Virus record (IMG/VR): IMGVR_UViG_3300032516_000144
Coordinates: 1 to 28,300 of that record
Direction: 5' to 3' (one strand)
Source: a virus
Length of the DNA: 28,300 bases
The translations under genes and the position numbers were made by a program. Within the stretch, counting starts at the first letter, position 1. Each line of letters begins with the position of its first letter. A model generated the notes under the pieces. The model had not been told where the DNA came from, ran no database searches, and worked only from the letters and a program-made list of their open reading frames with translations. Below are positions 1,038 through 10,200 of the stretch, piece by piece.

Positions 1038-1361
1038 TCAGACTACATTGATGAGTACGTTGCATTCCTCCTGCGCGGACTCGTCGTTATTCTTCGCGAC
1101 GACTTGGATCCGCTTGATCCCCGTCGTCGGCGTCTCCGCGTTGGCCCAGATATCGGCGATCGTCAGGACTTGCCCGGAGACGGTAACGACGCTCGAGATA
1201 TCGACGCCCGCCTCGCCCTCCACGGAGGGATATGAAAAACGGAGCGCCGAAACGATCGACGTCCCCGCGAGCGCGAGGGACTCGAGCGTAACGTCGAAGG
1301 GATCCCGGACGTTTGTCGAGATCTCGCCGAAGGATATCACGTTTACGAATTGATCCGTCAT
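1038..1361 (-). CDS. Small beta-rich protein of unknown function, end of the structural operon
   Basis: A 107-residue protein starting MTDQFVNVISFGEIST. The ATG at 1361 overlaps the stop of the large repeat protein by ATGA, and GAGGAG lies about nine bases upstream; the much longer in-frame extension upstream is an antisense-type shadow of the repeat gene. The sequence alternates short hydrophobic strands (SALRFSYPSVEG, VSGQVLTIADIWANAE, GIKRIQVVAKNNDES), which suggests one beta-sandwich domain. I do not recognise the family. Coupling to the adhesin-like gene suggests a small virion protein or an assembly partner for that adhesin. It is the last gene before the candidate terminator. Confidence 0.65.
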   Translation of the reverse strand: MTDQFVNVISFGEISTNVRDPFDVTLESLALAGTSIVSALRFSYPSVEGEAGVDISSVVTVSGQVLTIADIWANAETPTTGIKRIQVVAKNNDESAQEECNVLINVV

Positions 1362-3718
1362 AAATTCTCTCTCCTCTTTTTGACAATGAAGTCGGACTCC
1401 CTCTCGACGACGAAGGGACCGCGACGGAGTCCGATTTGTTCGGCCTCCGGCGCTTCGACGCGGAAATTCTTGTGTCTCGGGACGACGACGATATGCTTCC
1501 CCCCGGCCGGTAGATATTTGAGCCGGACTCCCTGAGCGGTAAGAATGAACGCCCCGGGACCCGCCGGGAGCTCCGGTTGCCCGGATCGCCGGAGGTCCGC
1601 GGATATCCCCTCGAGCGCGATCGGGAGCGCGTCGACGTAGATCCTCCGCCCGTACCGCGTCGCCGCGTCCCTCCCGGAGAACGAGAAAGAGCCCGTTTCC
1701 CCGGGAGTCCGCCTCGAGGCCCGGAGGCCCGCCGCGATTCCAGAGGCGGAAAAGGCCCCGGTCCCCCCTCCTACCACTCGGCCCGCCCGGAGATAGACGC
1801 TCATATCCGATATGTGGAGGTCCCCTGTAGCCGCCGGGAGGATCCGCGAGCGCTTGAGCTCCGCCGCTTGACCGGAGACCGCGAATGCGCCCGTATTCGC
1901 CGGGAGTGTTTTCGCTCCCTCCCCGGACCATACGAGCCCGGCTGCTTGCCCGGCGAGCGCGAGGGCCCCGGCGTCCGCCGCGAGTCGATACGTCCTCCGG
2001 GATCCGGCCGCTTGCCCGGTGAGGGCGAAGGATCTCGCGTCGAGGGCGTCCGCCCGCCTCGAGGCCCGGAGCGTCGCGATCTGTCCGGTGAGGCCGAAGG
2101 ATCTCGAGCTCGTCGCGTCCTGTGTCCGGCCGTAATGGAGCCCGGACGCTTGCCCCGCGAGCGAGAGCCCGAGCGCGTCGACCGGGATCCGCCTCGCCGC
2201 CCGAGTCGTGAACGTCTGCCACGCGAGAGCGAAGGATCCCGCCGCCGCCGGGAGCGTTTTGTCGCCGGTCCCGGAGTAGGTGAGGGCCGCTGCTTGCCCC
2301 GCGAGGGCGAACGTCTGAGCTGTCCCGGCCGAGATCTTCCTCGCCGCCCGGAGGGCCGTCTCGCCCCGCGGCGTGAGCGTGAAGATCGCGGCCGTTTGCG
2401 CGTCGAGACGATATGTACGCTTAAATCCAGTTTCAGCCCGGGGAGTGAGCGTGAAGGTAGCCGCGGATCCGGCGTCGAGCCGGACTCCCTTCAAGAGCCG
2501 CGTCTCCGCCCTCGGCGTGAGGACAAACGTCGCGGCCGTCTGAGCATCGAGGCGATACGTCCGCTTGAGGATCGTCTCCGATCGCGGCGTGAGGACAAAC
2601 GTCGTCGCCGTCGTCGCGCTCTGTTTCCTCGCGATCTTGAGCGACGTCTCCGATCGAGGGGTGAGCGTGAACGTCTGAGCGGTGAGAGCGTCGAGCTTTC
2701 TCCCCCACCGGAGGATCGTCTCCGTCCGGGGAGTGAGCGTGAAGGTCTGAGCCGGGCCGACGACGTATTTCCTTGTTGCCCGGACGTCTGTCTCAGATCG
2801 CGGCGTGAGCGTGAACGTCGTCGCCGTCTGCGCGATCTGCTTTCGCACAAACTTGAGGGCCGTCTCGGTCCTCGGGGTGAGCGTGTAATTCGCAGAGGTG
2901 TCGGCCCCGTACTTTCTCGTTGCCTTGAGGGCCGTCTCCGAGCGGGGCGTCAGCGTAAACGCCGCGGCCGTCGTCGCGTTCTGTGTTGAATTGTTGCTCG
3001 CGGTGGCCGGGACCTCGAATTCCACCCATGAGACCTGAGCGCGAGTATCCGGGATTGTATAGGTGATCGTTACTTGCCCGTTCGCCCCGGCCCCTCCCAC
3101 CTTGACGGGGGTCCCCGTATTGTTCCCCGATCCGCCGCCCGCGCCGCCCGGGAGGAGTCCGGCCGTTCCGTTTCCGTTTGACGCGCCGCCGTTCCCTCCG
3201 GCCCCGGCGTTTGCTCCGCCGTTATTGTTTCCGCCGGTACGGCCGGAGGCCGAGGTCCCCGTCGCTGCTCCCCGCGAGGATCCTCCGCCGCCGCCACCGA
3301 TCCCGGTCAGCGTACCGCCCGCGCCCGCGCCGCCCGCGTAGGTAAATTCGCCGACGCTGTTCGCCGTCGTACCGCCCGCGCCCGCGCCCGCGTTATTGTT
3401 GGACCCTAGAGCTCCCCCCGCCCCCTTAACTTCATTGTTGTTGAAATGCGAATTACCGCCGGCTGTCCCGTTGTTCCTGTTCGACCCGCCCGGGCCTCCG
3501 GCCCCGATCGCAATAGTGTAAACTGTGTTTTTGACGACGGAGACGTTGTTGTTTCGAGCGTACGCTCCTGCTCCGCCACCGGATCCTTCGTTGTTTCCGG
3601 TCCGGTTGGTTGCGCCGCCGCCGCCGCCCGCTCCCCATACCTCGACGACGACTCCCGTCATTGTCGCCGGAGCGGTCCACGAGACGTTTGCGGTGCTGTT
3701 GTAAGTAACGACTGCCAC
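1358..3718 (-). CDS. Glycine-rich, repeat-containing tail adhesin
   Basis: A 786-residue protein with GTG start at 3718; AAGGAG lies about seven bases upstream. Three regions are visible. Residues 1-217 form a glycine-rich domain with a beta opening (VSWTAPATMTGVVVEVWG) followed by Gly/Asn/Ala runs, like the Gly-rich domains of many phage adhesins. Residues 253-468 hold nine repeats of exactly 24 residues, core TFTLTPRSETALK. Residues 469-740 hold about twelve degenerate units near 22 residues, core SFALTGQAAxLRxSR. A basic C-terminus (VKKRRENL) follows. 'TPR' here is a residue string, not a tetratricopeptide. Short beta repeats of this FTLTGQ type recur in phage structural proteins. The likely role is a receptor-binding appendage or its stalk. 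Neighbours are a glycosyltransferase upstream and a coupled small beta protein downstream. Confidence 0.75.
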   Translation of the reverse strand: MAVVTYNSTANVSWTAPATMTGVVVEVWGAGGGGGATNRTGNNEGSGGGAGAYARNNNVSVVKNTVYTIAIGAGGPGGSNRNNGTAGGNSHFNNNEVKGAGGALGSNNNAGAGAGGTTANSVGEFTYAGGAGAGGTLTGIGGGGGGSSRGAATGTSASGRTGGNNNGGANAGAGGNGGASNGNGTAGLLPGGAGGGSGNNTGTPVKVGGAGANGQVTITYTIPDTRAQVSWVEFEVPATASNNSTQNATTAAAFTLTPRSETALKATRKYGADTSANYTLTPRTETALKFVRKQIAQTATTFTLTPRSETDVRATRKYVVGPAQTFTLTPRTETILRWGRKLDALTAQTFTLTPRSETSLKIARKQSATTATTFVLTPRSETILKRTYRLDAQTAATFVLTPRAETRLLKGVRLDAGSAATFTLTPRAETGFKRTYRLDAQTAAIFTLTPRGETALRAARKISAGTAQTFALAGQAAALTYSGTGDKTLPAAAGSFALAWQTFTTRAARRIPVDALGLSLAGQASGLHYGRTQDATSSRSFGLTGQIATLRASRRADALDARSFALTGQAAGSRRTYRLAADAGALALAGQAAGLVWSGEGAKTLPANTGAFAVSGQAAELKRSRILPAATGDLHISDMSVYLRAGRVVGGGTGAFSASGIAAGLRASRRTPGETGSFSFSGRDAATRYGRRIYVDALPIALEGISADLRRSGQPELPAGPGAFILTAQGVRLKYLPAGGKHIVVVPRHKNFRVEAPEAEQIGLRRGPFVVERESDFIVKKRRENL
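1499..2314 (-). repeat. About twelve diverged 66-bp coding repeats (22 residues each)
   Basis: This array continues directly from the 24-residue array but with a shorter unit and another core, such as SFALTGQAAG or AFAVSGQAAELKRSR. Two units carry a small insertion (SGTGDKTLP and SGEGAKTLP) at matching positions. The units are more diverged than those of the first array, so it is probably older. Confidence 0.75.
2315..2962 (-). repeat. Nine 72-bp coding repeats (24 residues each)
   Basis: Nine consecutive in-frame units span exactly 648 bases with no indel. All carry T-P-R-x-E-T after a hydrophobic strand, followed by a basic strand and an Ala/Thr-rich turn. Units 6 and 8 share KRTYRLDAQTAA and are close at DNA level as well. 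The constant length suggests a regular fold in which each unit adds one turn. Confidence 0.85.
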
Positions 3719-3727
3719 GAGATCTCC

Positions 3728-4507
3728 TTATTGTCCGGCTGCTCTCTGTTCTTCCCGCATTTTTTCTTTGACCGCCTCGAGCTCCCCGAGGATCGTCGCG
3801 TCGTAGATCCCGAGCTTGTCGATCTGCCACGCGACGAGTATCCGCTTCATGGCCTCGACCTTCTTCTCGACGGATTCCGTGTAGATATGCCAGAAAAAGT
3901 TAGAGTCTTTGAGCTGAGACTTGTCGAGCGTCTCGATCAGCGTCGTGAAATGCAGCCCGTACTTTGCGATATTCCTCGAGAGGACATAGTCGTCGACGAG
4001 GTGATCCGGGGTAATGATCGTCGCGAGCTCGTTCACCGTCGGGAAGATATTCGAGATCGCCTCGGCCGGAGTAAGGTCGTCCGGCGGCCTCCAAAGATCG
4101 AGGTTCCAATCGCTCCCGAACGTGCACCAGTTGCACGAGCCGATGTTGCGGCCGTCTCGCCGGAAATATTCGTCGTAGCGCCACCGGACCGCGGCGTAAT
4201 CGTTCCCGTTGTGAGCGACGAATTGCTTTCCGCCGAGCATTGGGATGAAGTCGATCGTCTCCGGGTGCACGAGCGCGTCGGCGTCAAAAAATATATTCCA
4301 ATCGTTCTCATGGAGACGGCCGAGCTCGTGGATCTGTAGCTTCTCAAAAACAACCGGCCACTCGGGAAACTTTCTCTCCCGGATCACAAAGAGCTCCGCT
4401 CCGATTTTCTCCGCGTAGCGCTGCATGAGCGGGAGGGTGAGCCGGGTGATCCCGGGAGCATAGTTGTCGACGACAAGAGTGTAGAGCGTTTTTTTCTCGG
4501 ATCGCAT
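3728..4507 (-). CDS. Glycosyltransferase with DXD motif
   Basis: A 259-residue protein starting MRSEKKTLYTLVVDNYAPG. The ATG at 4507 has AGGAG about eight bases upstream; the longer frame upstream lacks a site and overlaps the preceding gene. The first 80 residues read as a GT-A nucleotide-sugar fold: a first strand (TLYTLVVDNY), a segment of FEKLQIHELGRL type, then NIFFDADALVHP with D75-A-D77 as the metal/nucleotide-sugar motif. A later WHIY motif and the overall length resemble the GMA12/MNN10-like galactosyltransferases often found in phages. It would transfer a sugar to an unknown acceptor in the cytoplasm. Its position between two adhesin-like genes suggests that a virion adhesin, or a host surface glycan, is the acceptor; that is inference. 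Confidence 0.8.
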   Translation of the reverse strand: MRSEKKTLYTLVVDNYAPGITRLTLPLMQRYAEKIGAELFVIRERKFPEWPVVFEKLQIHELGRLHENDWNIFFDADALVHPETIDFIPMLGGKQFVAHNGNDYAAVRWRYDEYFRRDGRNIGSCNWCTFGSDWNLDLWRPPDDLTPAEAISNIFPTVNELATIITPDHLVDDYVLSRNIAKYGLHFTTLIETLDKSQLKDSNFFWHIYTESVEKKVEAMKRILVAWQIDKLGIYDATILGELEAVKEKMREEQRAAGQ

Positions 4508-4541
4508 GAGTGCTGCTCCTCTTTGGGTGAAGGGGCGTGAG

Positions 4542-5573
4542 TTATGGATTCTTGTTTGCCTTGAAGCGTACCCGGAGATTTGTCCACGCGCTGATTGTAT
4601 TTGTAACGAGAAAGGACCCGGCCGTCCACGTCGACGAGGCAATCCCGGTGTGTGTGTTGCTTTGGATCGAGCTCGCCCCGTCGTAGAGCGTTACCGTGAG
4701 GTCGATCGTATTCCCGTCGTTGTCTGTTCGGTATCTATATCGGAGCGTTCGGTCCCCGGTCGCCGGAGTCGAGAGACTCGAGAGCTGTACCTCGCACTCA
4801 TCGTTCGAGGGATTCGCCGCCGATTGAATATAGTCCGCGTCGCTGTAGGAAGTCTCGTCTATCTGCGCGTAGAGATTCGTCCCCGCGCTCGAGTCCGTCC
4901 ACGAGGCGTCTGTGACGTCGGCTGTCGGGCGCGCGTACTGAGGTGGCGGTCCCGATGGTGCAATAGGAAGACAACACGCCGCCCATCCCTGATTCTCCGT
5001 GGGATAGTTGTTGGTGTACGTCTGTGTTACAGAACCCGAACCCGTCTTGATGCTTGCCGCGCCCGTATTGAATCCACCTCCACCCTCGAGAGCGTTCCAG
5101 AGTTTCGTCTGGCTCGCACCAAAGTAGGTGTCGGAAGGCGTCATGCCCCAATGGTGACACGAGAGAAAAAGCATATCCTCTCCCGATGACATTGTCTTCG
5201 TCTGAGTCGCCGTCCCCGTCCCGGTGCTCCCGGCGTAGACGCCCGAGAGCGCCGTCTGAGTCGCGTCGTTCCATTCGATGTAGTTGCAACAAGCGTACAC
5301 GTTCCCCGAGAACTCGACAGAGATAGTGCCTGTGGACGCGTCGTTTCTTTCGTAGAGATACACCGCCGTGGCACCACTTTCGCCTGTTGACCCGACGAGC
5401 GTGAGGTTTGTACCACCGAGCGTACATGTGGAGATCGTCGGCGAGCCAGCCTCCGCGTATCTCGTTATCATGACAATGAGTTTCCTACTCGTTCCACTCA
5501 TTTGTGTGAACGAGCAGGACAGGGAAGTTCCTCCGTCGTTGAGCCCAGTTGTTCCCGAAGTGTTGCGTGTCAC
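4542..5573 (-). CDS. Beta-rich adhesin-like tail protein with two domains
   Basis: A 343-residue protein with a GTG start at 5573 that overlaps the previous stop as GTGA. The N-terminal half (residues 1-210) is a Thr/Ser/Gly-rich beta domain with strands such as RKLIVMITRYAEAG and GTISVEFSGNVYACCNYIEW, a type common in phage and secreted proteins. It has several Cys, including two CC pairs. The C-terminal half (from about residue 220) has the DETSYSDADYIQS and TLRYRYRTD motifs of a jelly-roll domain seen in many phage fibres. The likely role is an accessory fibre or receptor-binding protein. Most of the gene (above about 4800) lies in a stretch poor in GATC compared with its neighbours, a sign of acquisition from another source. 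Confidence 0.65.
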   Translation of the reverse strand: MTRNTSGTTGLNDGGTSLSCSFTQMSGTSRKLIVMITRYAEAGSPTISTCTLGGTNLTLVGSTGESGATAVYLYERNDASTGTISVEFSGNVYACCNYIEWNDATQTALSGVYAGSTGTGTATQTKTMSSGEDMLFLSCHHWGMTPSDTYFGASQTKLWNALEGGGGFNTGAASIKTGSGSVTQTYTNNYPTENQGWAACCLPIAPSGPPPQYARPTADVTDASWTDSSAGTNLYAQIDETSYSDADYIQSAANPSNDECEVQLSSLSTPATGDRTLRYRYRTDNDGNTIDLTVTLYDGASSIQSNTHTGIASSTWTAGSFLVTNTISAWTNLRVRFKANKNP

Positions 5574-6015: not shown

Positions 6016-6441
6016 TTACGCGATTGTCAGCACGCCGTTGGTCGGATCGAAGTCGACCGTGAACGTCTCGCCCGAGGCGAGGGTGATCGAAGATCCGTAG
6101 TCGTAGAATCCGATCAGCTCCTTCGACGTCGCGGTATCATTGTAGAGGATCGCGTAGCGGAACGGACCGATCCCCCCGGCCGTCGCGGTGAAAACGACGT
6201 CCGCGAGGACGAGTTTGTAGGTCCCGGTCGTCTGAGCGCTCGAGGAGATCGTCGCCTGTGTCGCGGAGTAGCCATTCGCCGCGGCCGGAGCCGGGTGAAG
6301 CGATCCCGGGAGGAAGCCGGTATCGGTTGCCGCCGTCGGGGAGGTATTCGAGAGGGCGATCCTGAGAGTGTCCGCTCCGAGATTGTGGGCCTTCTCGGCG
6401 AGGGCCTCGACGAAGGTGTTGAATTTCGTGAATGCTGCCAT
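6016..6441 (-). CDS. Conserved phage structural protein of unknown role
   Basis: A 141-residue protein starting MAAFTKFNTFVEALAEKAHNLG, with an AGGAAGGG site upstream of the ATG. The pattern is one I recognise as widespread in tail modules of marine and other phages: an N-terminal FxxFNxF-type helix, then LRIALSNTSP, ATISSSAQTTGTYKLVLADV, GPFRYAILYNDTAT and ELIGFYDYGSSITLASGE. In those genomes it is usually left as hypothetical. The second part is clearly a beta sandwich with a regular strand pattern. A virion role, such as a fibre tip, baseplate or decoration protein, fits but is not shown by the sequence. It is complete and has the normal high-GATC composition of the phage. Confidence 0.7.
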   Translation of the reverse strand: MAAFTKFNTFVEALAEKAHNLGADTLRIALSNTSPTAATDTGFLPGSLHPAPAAANGYSATQATISSSAQTTGTYKLVLADVVFTATAGGIGPFRYAILYNDTATSKELIGFYDYGSSITLASGETFTVDFDPTNGVLTIA

Positions 6442-6465
6442 GAGTTTTCCCTTCCTGAGTGTGTG

Positions 6466-6810
6466 TTATGGGTGTCCGATTTTGGAGAGCAGCCGCATGA
6501 GCTCGATCTGCGTCTGCTCGATCGCGGTCAAACGCCGGAGGATCTCAATTCTTGTTTGATCCTCGGCCGATTGATCTATGCGGAGCTTCTCGACCTTGTC
6601 GATGTTCTCCTTTTGCCGCTCCCGGAGCGCAGAGATCTCCATTGAGTGTACCCTGAGAACGCTTTGGACCTCCCCGATCGTAACGACGTTTGTGTAATAC
6701 GTCGAGAGGGCCGCCGTTACAACAGCCAATCCGACGACGACGAGCCGGTCGATCATGTGCGCCCGCCTTTCCTCCGCCGCTGTCGGGCCCCCGTTGTGAG
6801 TCTCACTCAT
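6466..6810 (-). CDS. Membrane protein with C-terminal coiled coil
   Basis: A 114-residue protein starting MSETHNGGPTAAEERRAH, with a strong GGAGGGGG site just before the ATG at 6810. The start overlaps the end of the upstream gene by eight bases. One transmembrane helix is visible at about residues 21-42 (RLVVVGLAVVTAALSTYY). It is followed by a charged helical part, residues 48-110, with heptad spacing of hydrophobics, as in SALRERQKENIDKVEKLR. Such one-helix plus coiled-coil proteins occur in phage lysis modules (XhlA-like) and as membrane-bound accessory proteins. Its position between the main fibre and the adhesins does not decide between a lysis, superinfection or assembly role. Confidence 0.6.
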   Translation of the reverse strand: MSETHNGGPTAAEERRAHMIDRLVVVGLAVVTAALSTYYTNVVTIGEVQSVLRVHSMEISALRERQKENIDKVEKLRIDQSAEDQTRIEILRRLTAIEQTQIELMRLLSKIGHP

Positions 6811-7192
6811 TTCCCCCTCCCTCGATTATGAATTCAAGATTTGCAATATCGGCCGCGGTGAGGAGAGATCCCTCGAGGTCCGCGAGCGGGACCTTCATCA
6901 CCGGGAGCTCGACCTCCTCATCGAGAAGCGCGTCCATCTGCTTGCGGAAATCTCCCATTCTCTCCGGGCCGACCTCCGTCTCCCCCTTGCCGTTCTTGAC
7001 GCCGAAGTCGTTGATAAATTTCAGCCGGGCCTTCTCGAGGTCTCCGAGCTCCTTCATGATCTTCTTTGAAAATTTTGTCAGACGATACGACGTTTTGACC
7101 GGGAGCCGGGAGTCGAGCAGCTTCGAGAGCGAGGTCTCGATCGCCTTGAGGTCGCGGATCTTGAATTTGCCGAGAGGGATTGTCGTTTCCAT
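6803..7192 (-). CDS. Helical phage protein of unknown function
   Basis: A 129-residue protein starting METTIPLGKFKIRDLKAIE, with AAGGAG about nine bases before the ATG. It is almost entirely helical and highly charged, with LSKLLDSRLPVKTSYRLTKF and DLEKARLKFINDFG in the first half and an acidic second half. The layout loosely resembles the DUF1617-type small proteins found in the tail/lysis interval of Firmicutes phages, but this is an impression from spacing, not a firm match. It lies directly after the long fibre and overlaps the membrane/coiled-coil gene by eight bases, so the two are probably co-translated. No membrane segment or signal is present. Confidence 0.6.
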   Translation of the reverse strand: METTIPLGKFKIRDLKAIETSLSKLLDSRLPVKTSYRLTKFSKKIMKELGDLEKARLKFINDFGVKNGKGETEVGPERMGDFRKQMDALLDEEVELPVMKVPLADLEGSLLTAADIANLEFIIEGGGNE

Positions 7193-7216
7193 GATTTTTC
7201 TCCTTGAGGGTGAGTG

Positions 7217-10200
7217 TTATGAGACGGTGATCCATCCGTTCGCGGTGTAGATTTTAACGACGGACCCGTTAACCCAAACGTCCCCGAGCGTCCCGAAGGC
7301 CGGAGTCGTTCCTGAATTGTGTACGGTAGCGACCGGCCGGGAGTCGACCATGAGCGAGGCCCCGGTGAGGATCATAGACCCGGAGGTCATCACGCTTTTC
7401 AGCTTGTCTGAGGCGTAGATCTGCAGCCCGGTATCGTTCGCAAAAAGATATGTGTCGTTGTAGATCTCGACCTTCACGTCGTCTACAAAAATGTCCGAGA
7501 GCCCTTGATTGCCCGTCGAGATCGCCGTCCCATAGAACCGTAACGCAAGCTCGAAATAGCTCGTCGCGAGAGACGGGACGACAAAGTCCGCGGTGTATTC
7601 ACTCCACGCGGCCCCCGGGGATCCGACGGAGGTGTGCGTAAACCTCTGGCTCCAATCATGGGCCCCGACGATCGCGACTCCGGGAGGGGCCGCTCCCCCG
7701 TATAGCCAGACGGAAATCTTGATGTGCTTTCCGACCATGAGCAGGAGATCGTCGGAGCGAGTGAATTGTTTGTAGACGACGGCCTCGAAGGCCCCGGTCG
7801 CCGGGCACGTCAGGGAGCTCAAGTTTACCTTGAGCGCCCCCGTCGCGTTATGCCCGGTCGTCCCGTCTCGCGTCGCCGTCGGCCCGCTCGCGTTGACGAA
7901 ACGGATCGACCACCCCCCGGCGGTCGAAAGGAAATTGAGGACGTTCGCGTAGTCGTAGACAGAGGTGCTCATATTCGAGAGCGTCGGGGAGGGAGTGCTC
8001 ATAGCAAATTTCCCGACCTTCAGCCGATCGGTGGATGAAATCGCCACCCCCAGACCGCTGAATCCCGAAGACCCATTCCAAGTCGATTCCAGTCTGACGG
8101 TCGCCGTTCCGTTCGTGTGGGAAAGTTTTGTCGAATCGAACGACCATCCAGCAATAGTGTTGTACGTGTCGTGAATCGCGGCTCCGCTCCCTACCGCATT
8201 GACAAGCGCGCTCAATGTAAAGTAGTCGTTCCCCTCATGATCCATCATTTGCAATCCGTACCACACCCCCACGGACGCGCCTTCCCCGTAGTCCTGCAAC
8301 GTGCGGGAGTTGGGGTTGTTCGTCTTGAGCGTTGTCGCAGAACCCGCGATACGCCCGAGCACGAGGTGCCCAGCGTTGTACGACGACCACCACCGAATCG
8401 AAAATCCCGTGAGGTTCGATTGTGATTGATACCAGTTCGACACGCTGTTCAATCCCGACACGGCGCTTGACATGATGACGGAAGGCTTGCTCGTACCCGT
8501 CGTGTCGGCAGACGCGATACGGTCAAGCGAGAGATTCCACCCAGCGATTGTCGCTGTCCCGCTCGTCGGGAGGCTGATGAACGGCGAAGTGCTCCCAGTC
8601 TTGTACGCGCGGAACCCGTCGGATTTGCTAATGATTACGCCCGTAAACGTGGCAACGCCGTGCGGTGCATAGTTGCCAATATATACGCCGTCGTTTGTCG
8701 AGGACAGATACAACGTGGACGCCGCGGTCTTGACAGAAAGACCTTGCGAGGAAACCGCGACGACGGGATTCTGCATGTACCCGCCGAAGCCGCCGACGTT
8801 CGCCCACATGCCGTACACCTCTGTTGCCGATGACCCTACGCCGTCTGTCGGCTGATACGGCGATGCGTCAGGAGATTCTTCGAGTTGCGCGCCGTACACG
8901 TAGATCGTCGTGGAGTTGTCGCCTTGCGTGAGTTGCGCGTAAACGGTGTAAGCGAGTTGCGCGCCTGTCGCCGTGCTCGTTCCCGTAACGACGTAACGCT
9001 TGAATGCTGAAGTGAGGGTGACCGCGAGCGAGGCGATACCAGCGTAGTCCGTCCATCTGGCGATATCCATTGTGAACGCCTCGCCACCAGAAGCACCACG
9101 CGCCCACACGCTGAGCGTGAACGTCTTCGTGCCGACGGCTGTCGTCGTATTGTTGAAACGGTAGGGGTTTGTACCACCACTCCTCACCCACCGCGTTGCG
9201 TTCTGCCCGCCGTCTGGTGTCAGGATTCCAGCAAATCGGTCGCTCAACGTGATTCCCGAGGAGCCTGGGTCAGTCCACGTTGTAAACAGTTCGCTATCTA
9301 CTGAGAGTAGTTGAACCTTTATCTTGCCAGCGTAGAACGATGGGCTGATTTGCTGTGCGCCTGTCGTCGTCGTGCCGCCGACGGCAAGGGTGCCGACAAT
9401 CTTTGCGTTTCCTTCAAGGTACAAGTTGTTCGAGTAAAGCCCGTATCCCGCGAGCGTGCCGAAGGTCGTCGTTTGAATCGCGACAATGTTTCCGAGACGC
9501 GCCCGTACCGAAAGATTGGTACTCACCGCAGGATGTGTTGTCCATGTCACGATCTGCGCGTACGGCGAGTTCACCGCATTCGCACCGTCAATCGCATTGA
9601 CCTCGTAGTACCCGTTCCCTGTCGTTCCATAGTCCAACGCAAGCGTACCCTCCGGTACGACCTGCGATGTTCCCATATCACCCGCGTTCGGCGCAGAGGA
9701 GCGCAAGAACGTGTACGTCTGTGTCTTCGCGGTCGTATCCGTACTCACCCACGTAATCGTACCCCAACAGTCCCATATTGTCAGGTCGAGATTTGTCCGC
9801 GAGAATGTTCTGATACGGATGACATCGCTATTGACAAACACCTTTGCATCTTGAAACCCCGCAAAACTTTCCACCACCAGTGTTGCAGTCCCCCCTGCGG
9901 CGGGGGATGTGAACGACTTAATCTTGGCGACAGACTTGCAGATGATCTGTCCCCCTGCAAGTGCCTGTTCCAAATCCGCGATGAAACTCTTGACGTGCAT
10001 CTCATCCACGAACAGGTAGCGGAAGTCGGCATCGCCGCTTGCCGTAATTTTCCATCCCGTTGTCTGCGAAGCATAGGTCGGTGAGGAAAGCGCACCTGTG
10101 AACTTGACACCACTATCTGCGGCGGCGATCACGACAGCATTGGCGGCCAGCGCGGTATTGTATATTCTCCACGACGTTCCATCCATGACCGTCTGCCACT

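Follow-up and report, generated by a model that had tools for sequence, protein, structure and literature searches.

Introduction

In crAss-like phages, tail-associated BACON repeats have grown by internal duplication and have been proposed to serve in host binding (PMC6949934). Glycine-rich receptor-binding tips are described for Pam3 gp24 and for gp38 of phage S16 (PMC9608196). While repeat stalks in phage proteins are already known, we describe here a 22-residue repeat family to which nothing in the curated protein libraries we searched corresponds, although about a hundred virus contigs or more contain it. We analyzed it from a window (the whole stretch of DNA studied, 28,300 bases), which is a complete IMG/VR virus record and encodes an array of nine 24-residue units. 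What makes the locus of value is the unnamed family behind these nine units more than the units themselves.

Results and Discussion

The window carries a tailed-phage structural region on its minus strand, in which a terminase large subunit (Pfam), a major head protein (PHROG) and a tape measure protein (PHROG) were recognized. Close to the end of this region lies an ORF of 786 amino acids (1358–3718, minus strand, GTG start), which is composed of a Gly-rich N-terminal domain, a linker, two repeat arrays, called array 1 and array 2, and a C-terminal tail. The Gly-rich domain (residues 10–220; 3059–3691, minus strand) matches Pfam PF21722, Gly_rich_2, with an E value of 3.7e-15 and 57 bits (cut-off 24.3). 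It additionally gave a weak match to phrog_863 and a weak one in the PDB to the tail fibre of Pam3 (E 3.7e-5), the latter being a match that says little about ancestry in such Gly-rich sequence. None of the other fetched ORFs showed this domain of the window protein. In the linker, the motif QVSWVEFEVP (residues 228–237; 3008–3037, minus strand) is found a second time close to the terminus of a non-repeat tail-region protein of another phage (contig L002, 3387–5255), and from the sequence it is a possible module boundary. The same contig has two tail-region ORFs in common with the window. The C-terminal tail (residues 741–786; 1361–1498, minus strand) is non-repetitive and was modelled with low confidence. 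Opposite the arrays, the plus strand contains an open frame of 470 amino acids (1577–2989), which is probably a side effect of the GC-rich coding of the minus strand.

Array 1 was confirmed as the preliminary description had reported it, with nine consecutive 24-residue units that all keep a TPRxET core. The array runs in frame from 2962 to 2315 on the minus strand (residues 253–468) with no indel, and unit n extends from 2962−72(n−1) down to 2891−72(n−1), hence 24 residues or 72 nucleotides each, of the type xFxLTPRxETxLK..RK..A.TAx. Six positions (L4, T5, P6, R7, E9 and T10) are invariant in 9/9 units and position 2 is F in eight and Y in one of them, so that all units share the motif F/Y-x-LTPRxET. 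Pairs of units are 38–83% identical as protein and 49–74% as DNA. The self-identity of residues 241–750 is 0.28 at lag 24, 0.32 at lag 48 and 0.26 at lag 72, compared to 0.12–0.16 at the next-best lags, which puts the periodicity far above chance. On the DNA level Tandem Repeats Finder missed array 1, because its copies are too diverged as DNA; a DNA repeat search did detect the 72-nt spacing. The phase of the array is a matter of choice. Unit 1 is preceded by a half-unit STQNATTAA (residues 244–252; 2963–2989, minus strand), which is like the ends of the 24-residue units and whose site is paired with unit ends by a 16-nt repeat (family D11), and the F-to-F spacing of 24 carries on into array 2. 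For TPRxET arrays elsewhere, searches of viral contigs by alignment and with two DNA patterns gave only chance matches among those listed.

Units 6 and 8 had been described as near-identical and taken as signs of recent copying or recombination. As protein they are indeed alike (20/24 residues, 83%), but as DNA they are only 68% identical, and they use the same codon in 7 of the 20 shared residues, while codon usage alone predicts 8.9. The codons thus rule out recent copying of this pair and show that likeness of repeat units on the protein level can mislead on this point. For array 1 as a whole, a tandem duplication caught in the act would account for the exact unit length and the mean identity of 56%. 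A slight excess of shared codons over all unit pairs (248 vs 213 expected) points the same way, although it is marginal, as it was reached in 73 of 2000 simulations (about 4%). Since units 6 and 8 fall below the codon prediction and no pair exceeds 74% DNA identity, we regard such a recent event as highly improbable. The best reading is that array 1 is old at the DNA level and is maintained by selection on the protein rather than newly copied.

Array 2 (residues 469–740; 1499–2314, minus strand) follows directly and contains about twelve units of the type GxFxLTGQxAxL with lengths, in order, of 26, 22, 23, 23, 22, 26, 22, 22, 22, 22, 24 and 18 (partial) residues. Together with array 1 this gives 21 tandem units in the protein with no phase break between the arrays. 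A unit HMM built solely from other phages gave 46.9 bits for array 2, while the best of about 240 shuffles reached 7.1, which at the sequence level identifies array 2 as a member of a 22-residue phage repeat family with the unit GxFxLTGQxAxLxxxxxLxAxx. The TerL closest to that of the window (71%) is on a contig that also encodes a 617-residue protein; most of the 15 units of this protein have 22 residues, and its repeats match array 2 with an E value of 2e-18. This family protein, too, is encoded close to where the structural genes end.

The family DNA was collected with a pattern for GxFxLTGQxA in viral contigs, and all family counts are lower bounds. Searching the fetched DNA with an HMM yielded at least 111 family ORFs, of which at least 99 are distinct; their unit number ranges from 2 to 52, and nearly all come from contigs of uncultured viruses. 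Examples are L037:12316–14169, L048, L054 and gp72 of EBPR siphovirus 2. The longest array seen, with 52 units, is that of a 2771-residue ORF (L093:1850–10162). Among annotated phage records, the repeats of a relative matched 5 of 50,697; these are four Manatee Spring records and EBPR siphovirus 2, and a host is named for none of them. A tblastn search of annotated phages with the whole window protein gave no match, not even when E 10 was allowed for its repeats; as those of the relative did match five records, this empty result is explained by divergence and possibly by the low-complexity filter. In the members scanned, no family of Pfam, NCBIfam or PHROGs covers the 22-residue unit, and a search by motif text found no paper on it. 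Some relatives do show Pfam matches (YscD, SH2 and others), but these look spurious and most are without any individually significant stretch.

Outside of viruses, the same DNA pattern found at least 117 stretches in bacterial genome contigs, none with a family ORF among the matches listed, and the sole match in plasmids was an autotransporter (E 2e-6). In the genomes of one bacterial class, a weak match was obtained in 1 of 289, while 6 of 6 virus records matched as the positive control. A genome of this class (G039) contains a 437-residue ORF (L281:658–1971, E 6e-10) in which a few degenerate units follow a different N-terminal part, and which is possibly a prophage protein.

We compared array 1 with the family by alignment, using as control array 1 units whose 24 columns were permuted identically in every unit. 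Array 1 aligns with array 2 at a score of 108 (scrambled 49 ± 11, maximum 95; 0 of 500 reach it) and with 12 relatives at 119 (scrambled 56 ± 8; 0 of 200 reach it). Over the order-scrambled controls, the agreement with the residue order of the family amounts to z = 5–8. In the alignment, F-x-L-T and the R/K-rich second half are in register, and the extra residues are located around TPRSE and in the second half. Array 1 differs from the FxLTGQ family in that it has 24-residue units and TPRxET in place of TGQxA; some family units (in L141 and L143) have TP instead of the usual TG. In addition, RTYRL is common to unit 6 of array 1 and the array 2 unit at residues 563–584. The tests are of unequal strength: a stricter profile-column test was marginal (4% and 2.5%), and with the family HMM array 1 scores no higher than shuffles. 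We conclude from these sequence comparisons that both arrays probably belong to one repeat family, with array 1 as its 24-residue variant. Array 2 had been described as a second array with another unit length; rather than being independent, it probably belongs to the same repeat family, whose unit length is variable. The associated idea of two stacked generations of expansion retains weak support, as array 1 is the more homogeneous of the two (mean unit identity 56% in array 1, 40% in array 2 and 26% between the arrays). This greater homogeneity is compatible with stronger constraint, or with one variant having spread locally at an earlier time.

Eight 22-residue family units were modelled by AlphaFold2 from 22 aligned sequences as an all-beta, solenoid-like structure (pLDDT 90.4, pTM 0.85), in which every 22 residues contribute about one long strand region and one turn. 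For repeats, a known bias of AlphaFold2 is to predict beta-solenoids too readily and with confidence; the published warning concerns near-perfect repeats (PMC11795689), and because the family repeats are diverged, the concern is lessened, yet not removed. A fold search of the PDB gave no match better than E 0.45, the weak matches being mostly beta-solenoids, and the best viral fold match was an uncharacterized caudoviral protein (E 3e-4). The unit lengths of the family are nearly always even, with 1140 even vs 45 odd (253 vs 45 when the 22-residue units are excluded), and are mostly 20, 22, 24 or 26. Beta structure with alternating inward- and outward-facing side chains would tolerate steps of two residues and hence fits these even lengths, by which a beta fold can be recognized simply from sequence. 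A regular repeat fold, as had been suggested earlier from the equal unit lengths, is likely.

For the window protein itself, where only array 2 is well covered by aligned relatives, AlphaFold2 gave an unreliable model (pLDDT 52.5, pTM 0.45), in which array 1 is drawn as strand plus helix at a pLDDT of about 50–65; in units 1–5, the strand corresponds to FTLT and the helix to SETALKATRK. Taken at face value, this would make array 1 a separate strand–helix (beta/alpha) repeat of an origin unrelated to the all-beta array 2, to which it would have been joined by domain shuffling. TPRxE is a usual helix start, and the family HMM did not detect array 1, both of which speak for such a separate origin. 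However, the model is too uncertain in just these units, and the agreement in residue order, the phase that continues across the array boundary, the shared RTYRL and the TP found for TG in the family all connect the two arrays, so that we consider a separate origin unlikely and retain a common family for both.

Growth and shrinkage of the array had been anticipated as well. Whole-unit change does occur in the repeat family, as gaps between relatives show; for the window locus, no relative showed a different unit count, as a search that included other tail genes found no close relative of the window phage. Over 2.45 kb, L054 shares about 93% identity with L046/L112, and the only gap between them is one of 132 nt, which is exactly two units. 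At the site of this gap, L054 has two units with 86% DNA identity that lie two units apart. Other family relatives show gaps of 22, 24, 44 and 68 residues, L053 contains two adjacent units with identical DNA, and in L058 a block of three units is duplicated.

The ends of the family proteins vary: the repeats begin at the start or after a domain of at least 150 residues, and the tail is mostly short. A basic C-terminal tail was considered as a family trait and discarded (25 of 88 vs a background of 30%). The ending RRRN(V/I)L(I/V)F is found in L067, L069, L088, L096, L102, L110, L122, L126 and others, and is not family-wide. Among the matches listed, 57 of 110 family ORFs have a phrog_644 homologue no more than 4 kb upstream, and one is also present in the window (6016–6441, minus strand, E 5.9e-15). 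This frequent neighbour, the position late in the structural gene region and the varied ends of the family fit a modular stalk, and the window protein is probably such a stalk, of adjustable length, behind a Gly-rich N-terminal domain. The label adhesin, under which the protein had been introduced, is unproven, as only the N-terminal Gly-rich domain (PF21722) points to it; by analogy, this domain and its likeness to the Gly-rich tips of Pam3 and S16 suggest a role in attachment. We know of no protein of the 22-residue family with a tested function. In L067 (3219–6536), the repeat blocks of a family protein flank NF048003, a phage head spike fibre domain, and some members may accordingly be head rather than tail appendages.

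Directly upstream of the repeat ORF lies an ORF of 304 amino acids (3728–4642, minus strand), which contains FFDADALVHP and has homologues in only two contigs outside the window among the DNA fetched (L002 and L003). The label glycosyltransferase found no support, as the motif is DxD-like by eye only and neither Pfam nor PHROGs gave a match. L002 also encodes a protein of 536 amino acids (6020–7627) with a different tandem repeat of about 14 residues, which is rich in Thr, Ser and acidic residues and of which VTTTAATSRTEDED is an example. This neighbourhood raises the question of whether the arrays could be a surface scaffold, for example for the glycosylation of Thr/Ser-rich repeats, or a flexible linker, and not a rigid stalk. 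The adjoining ORF with its DxD-like motif and the pairing of its homologue with another Thr/Ser-rich repeat protein in L002 would fit such a role, but no profile backs the enzymatic label, the ORF accompanies so few contigs, and the repeats, like folded units, have hydrophobic positions (F, L, L). We thus judge a scaffold or linker to be quite improbable and continue with the stalk.

Conclusion

In summary, we think it fairly probable that array 1 is a stretch of 24-residue variants within a 21-unit family array that forms a beta-solenoid-like, length-variable stalk in the tail region. Each unit would then be one coil of a beta-solenoid-like rod, steps of two residues would lengthen the coil and leave its inward-facing side chains unchanged, and the rod would stand as a stalk in the tail region of the virion, carrying or following the Gly-rich N-terminal domain. 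Unequal recombination or slippage between similar units would alter the length of the rod. One may also speculate, and we would sooner doubt this than assert it, that many uncultured phages use a common unnamed class of 22-residue beta-solenoids as a length-adjustable stalk, which changes by whole units and by two-residue steps and in which the TPRxET variant coil has spread here. If this is true, stalk length would be a trait under selection besides the binding tip. The family, with up to 52 units and with relatives that are one, two or more units apart, provides a natural series for the study of stalk length vs infection.

The repeat unit of curlin has about 22 residues. The predicted fold of the family would resemble the beta-solenoid of curlin (PF07012) in unit length and in the strand–turn–strand plan; the curlin motif is different from that of the family, and eight family proteins scanned gave no Pfam curlin match. 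Like Pam3 gp24 and S16 gp38, the window protein has a Gly-rich domain joined to another fibre part, although this domain is the distal tip in the former two and N-terminal in the window protein. Finally, the window repeats are, like the BACON repeats, tail-associated tandem repeats in uncultured phages, but while BACON repeats are whole Ig-like domains, the family described here is built from single short units, whose copy number varies by 20–26 residues at a time.
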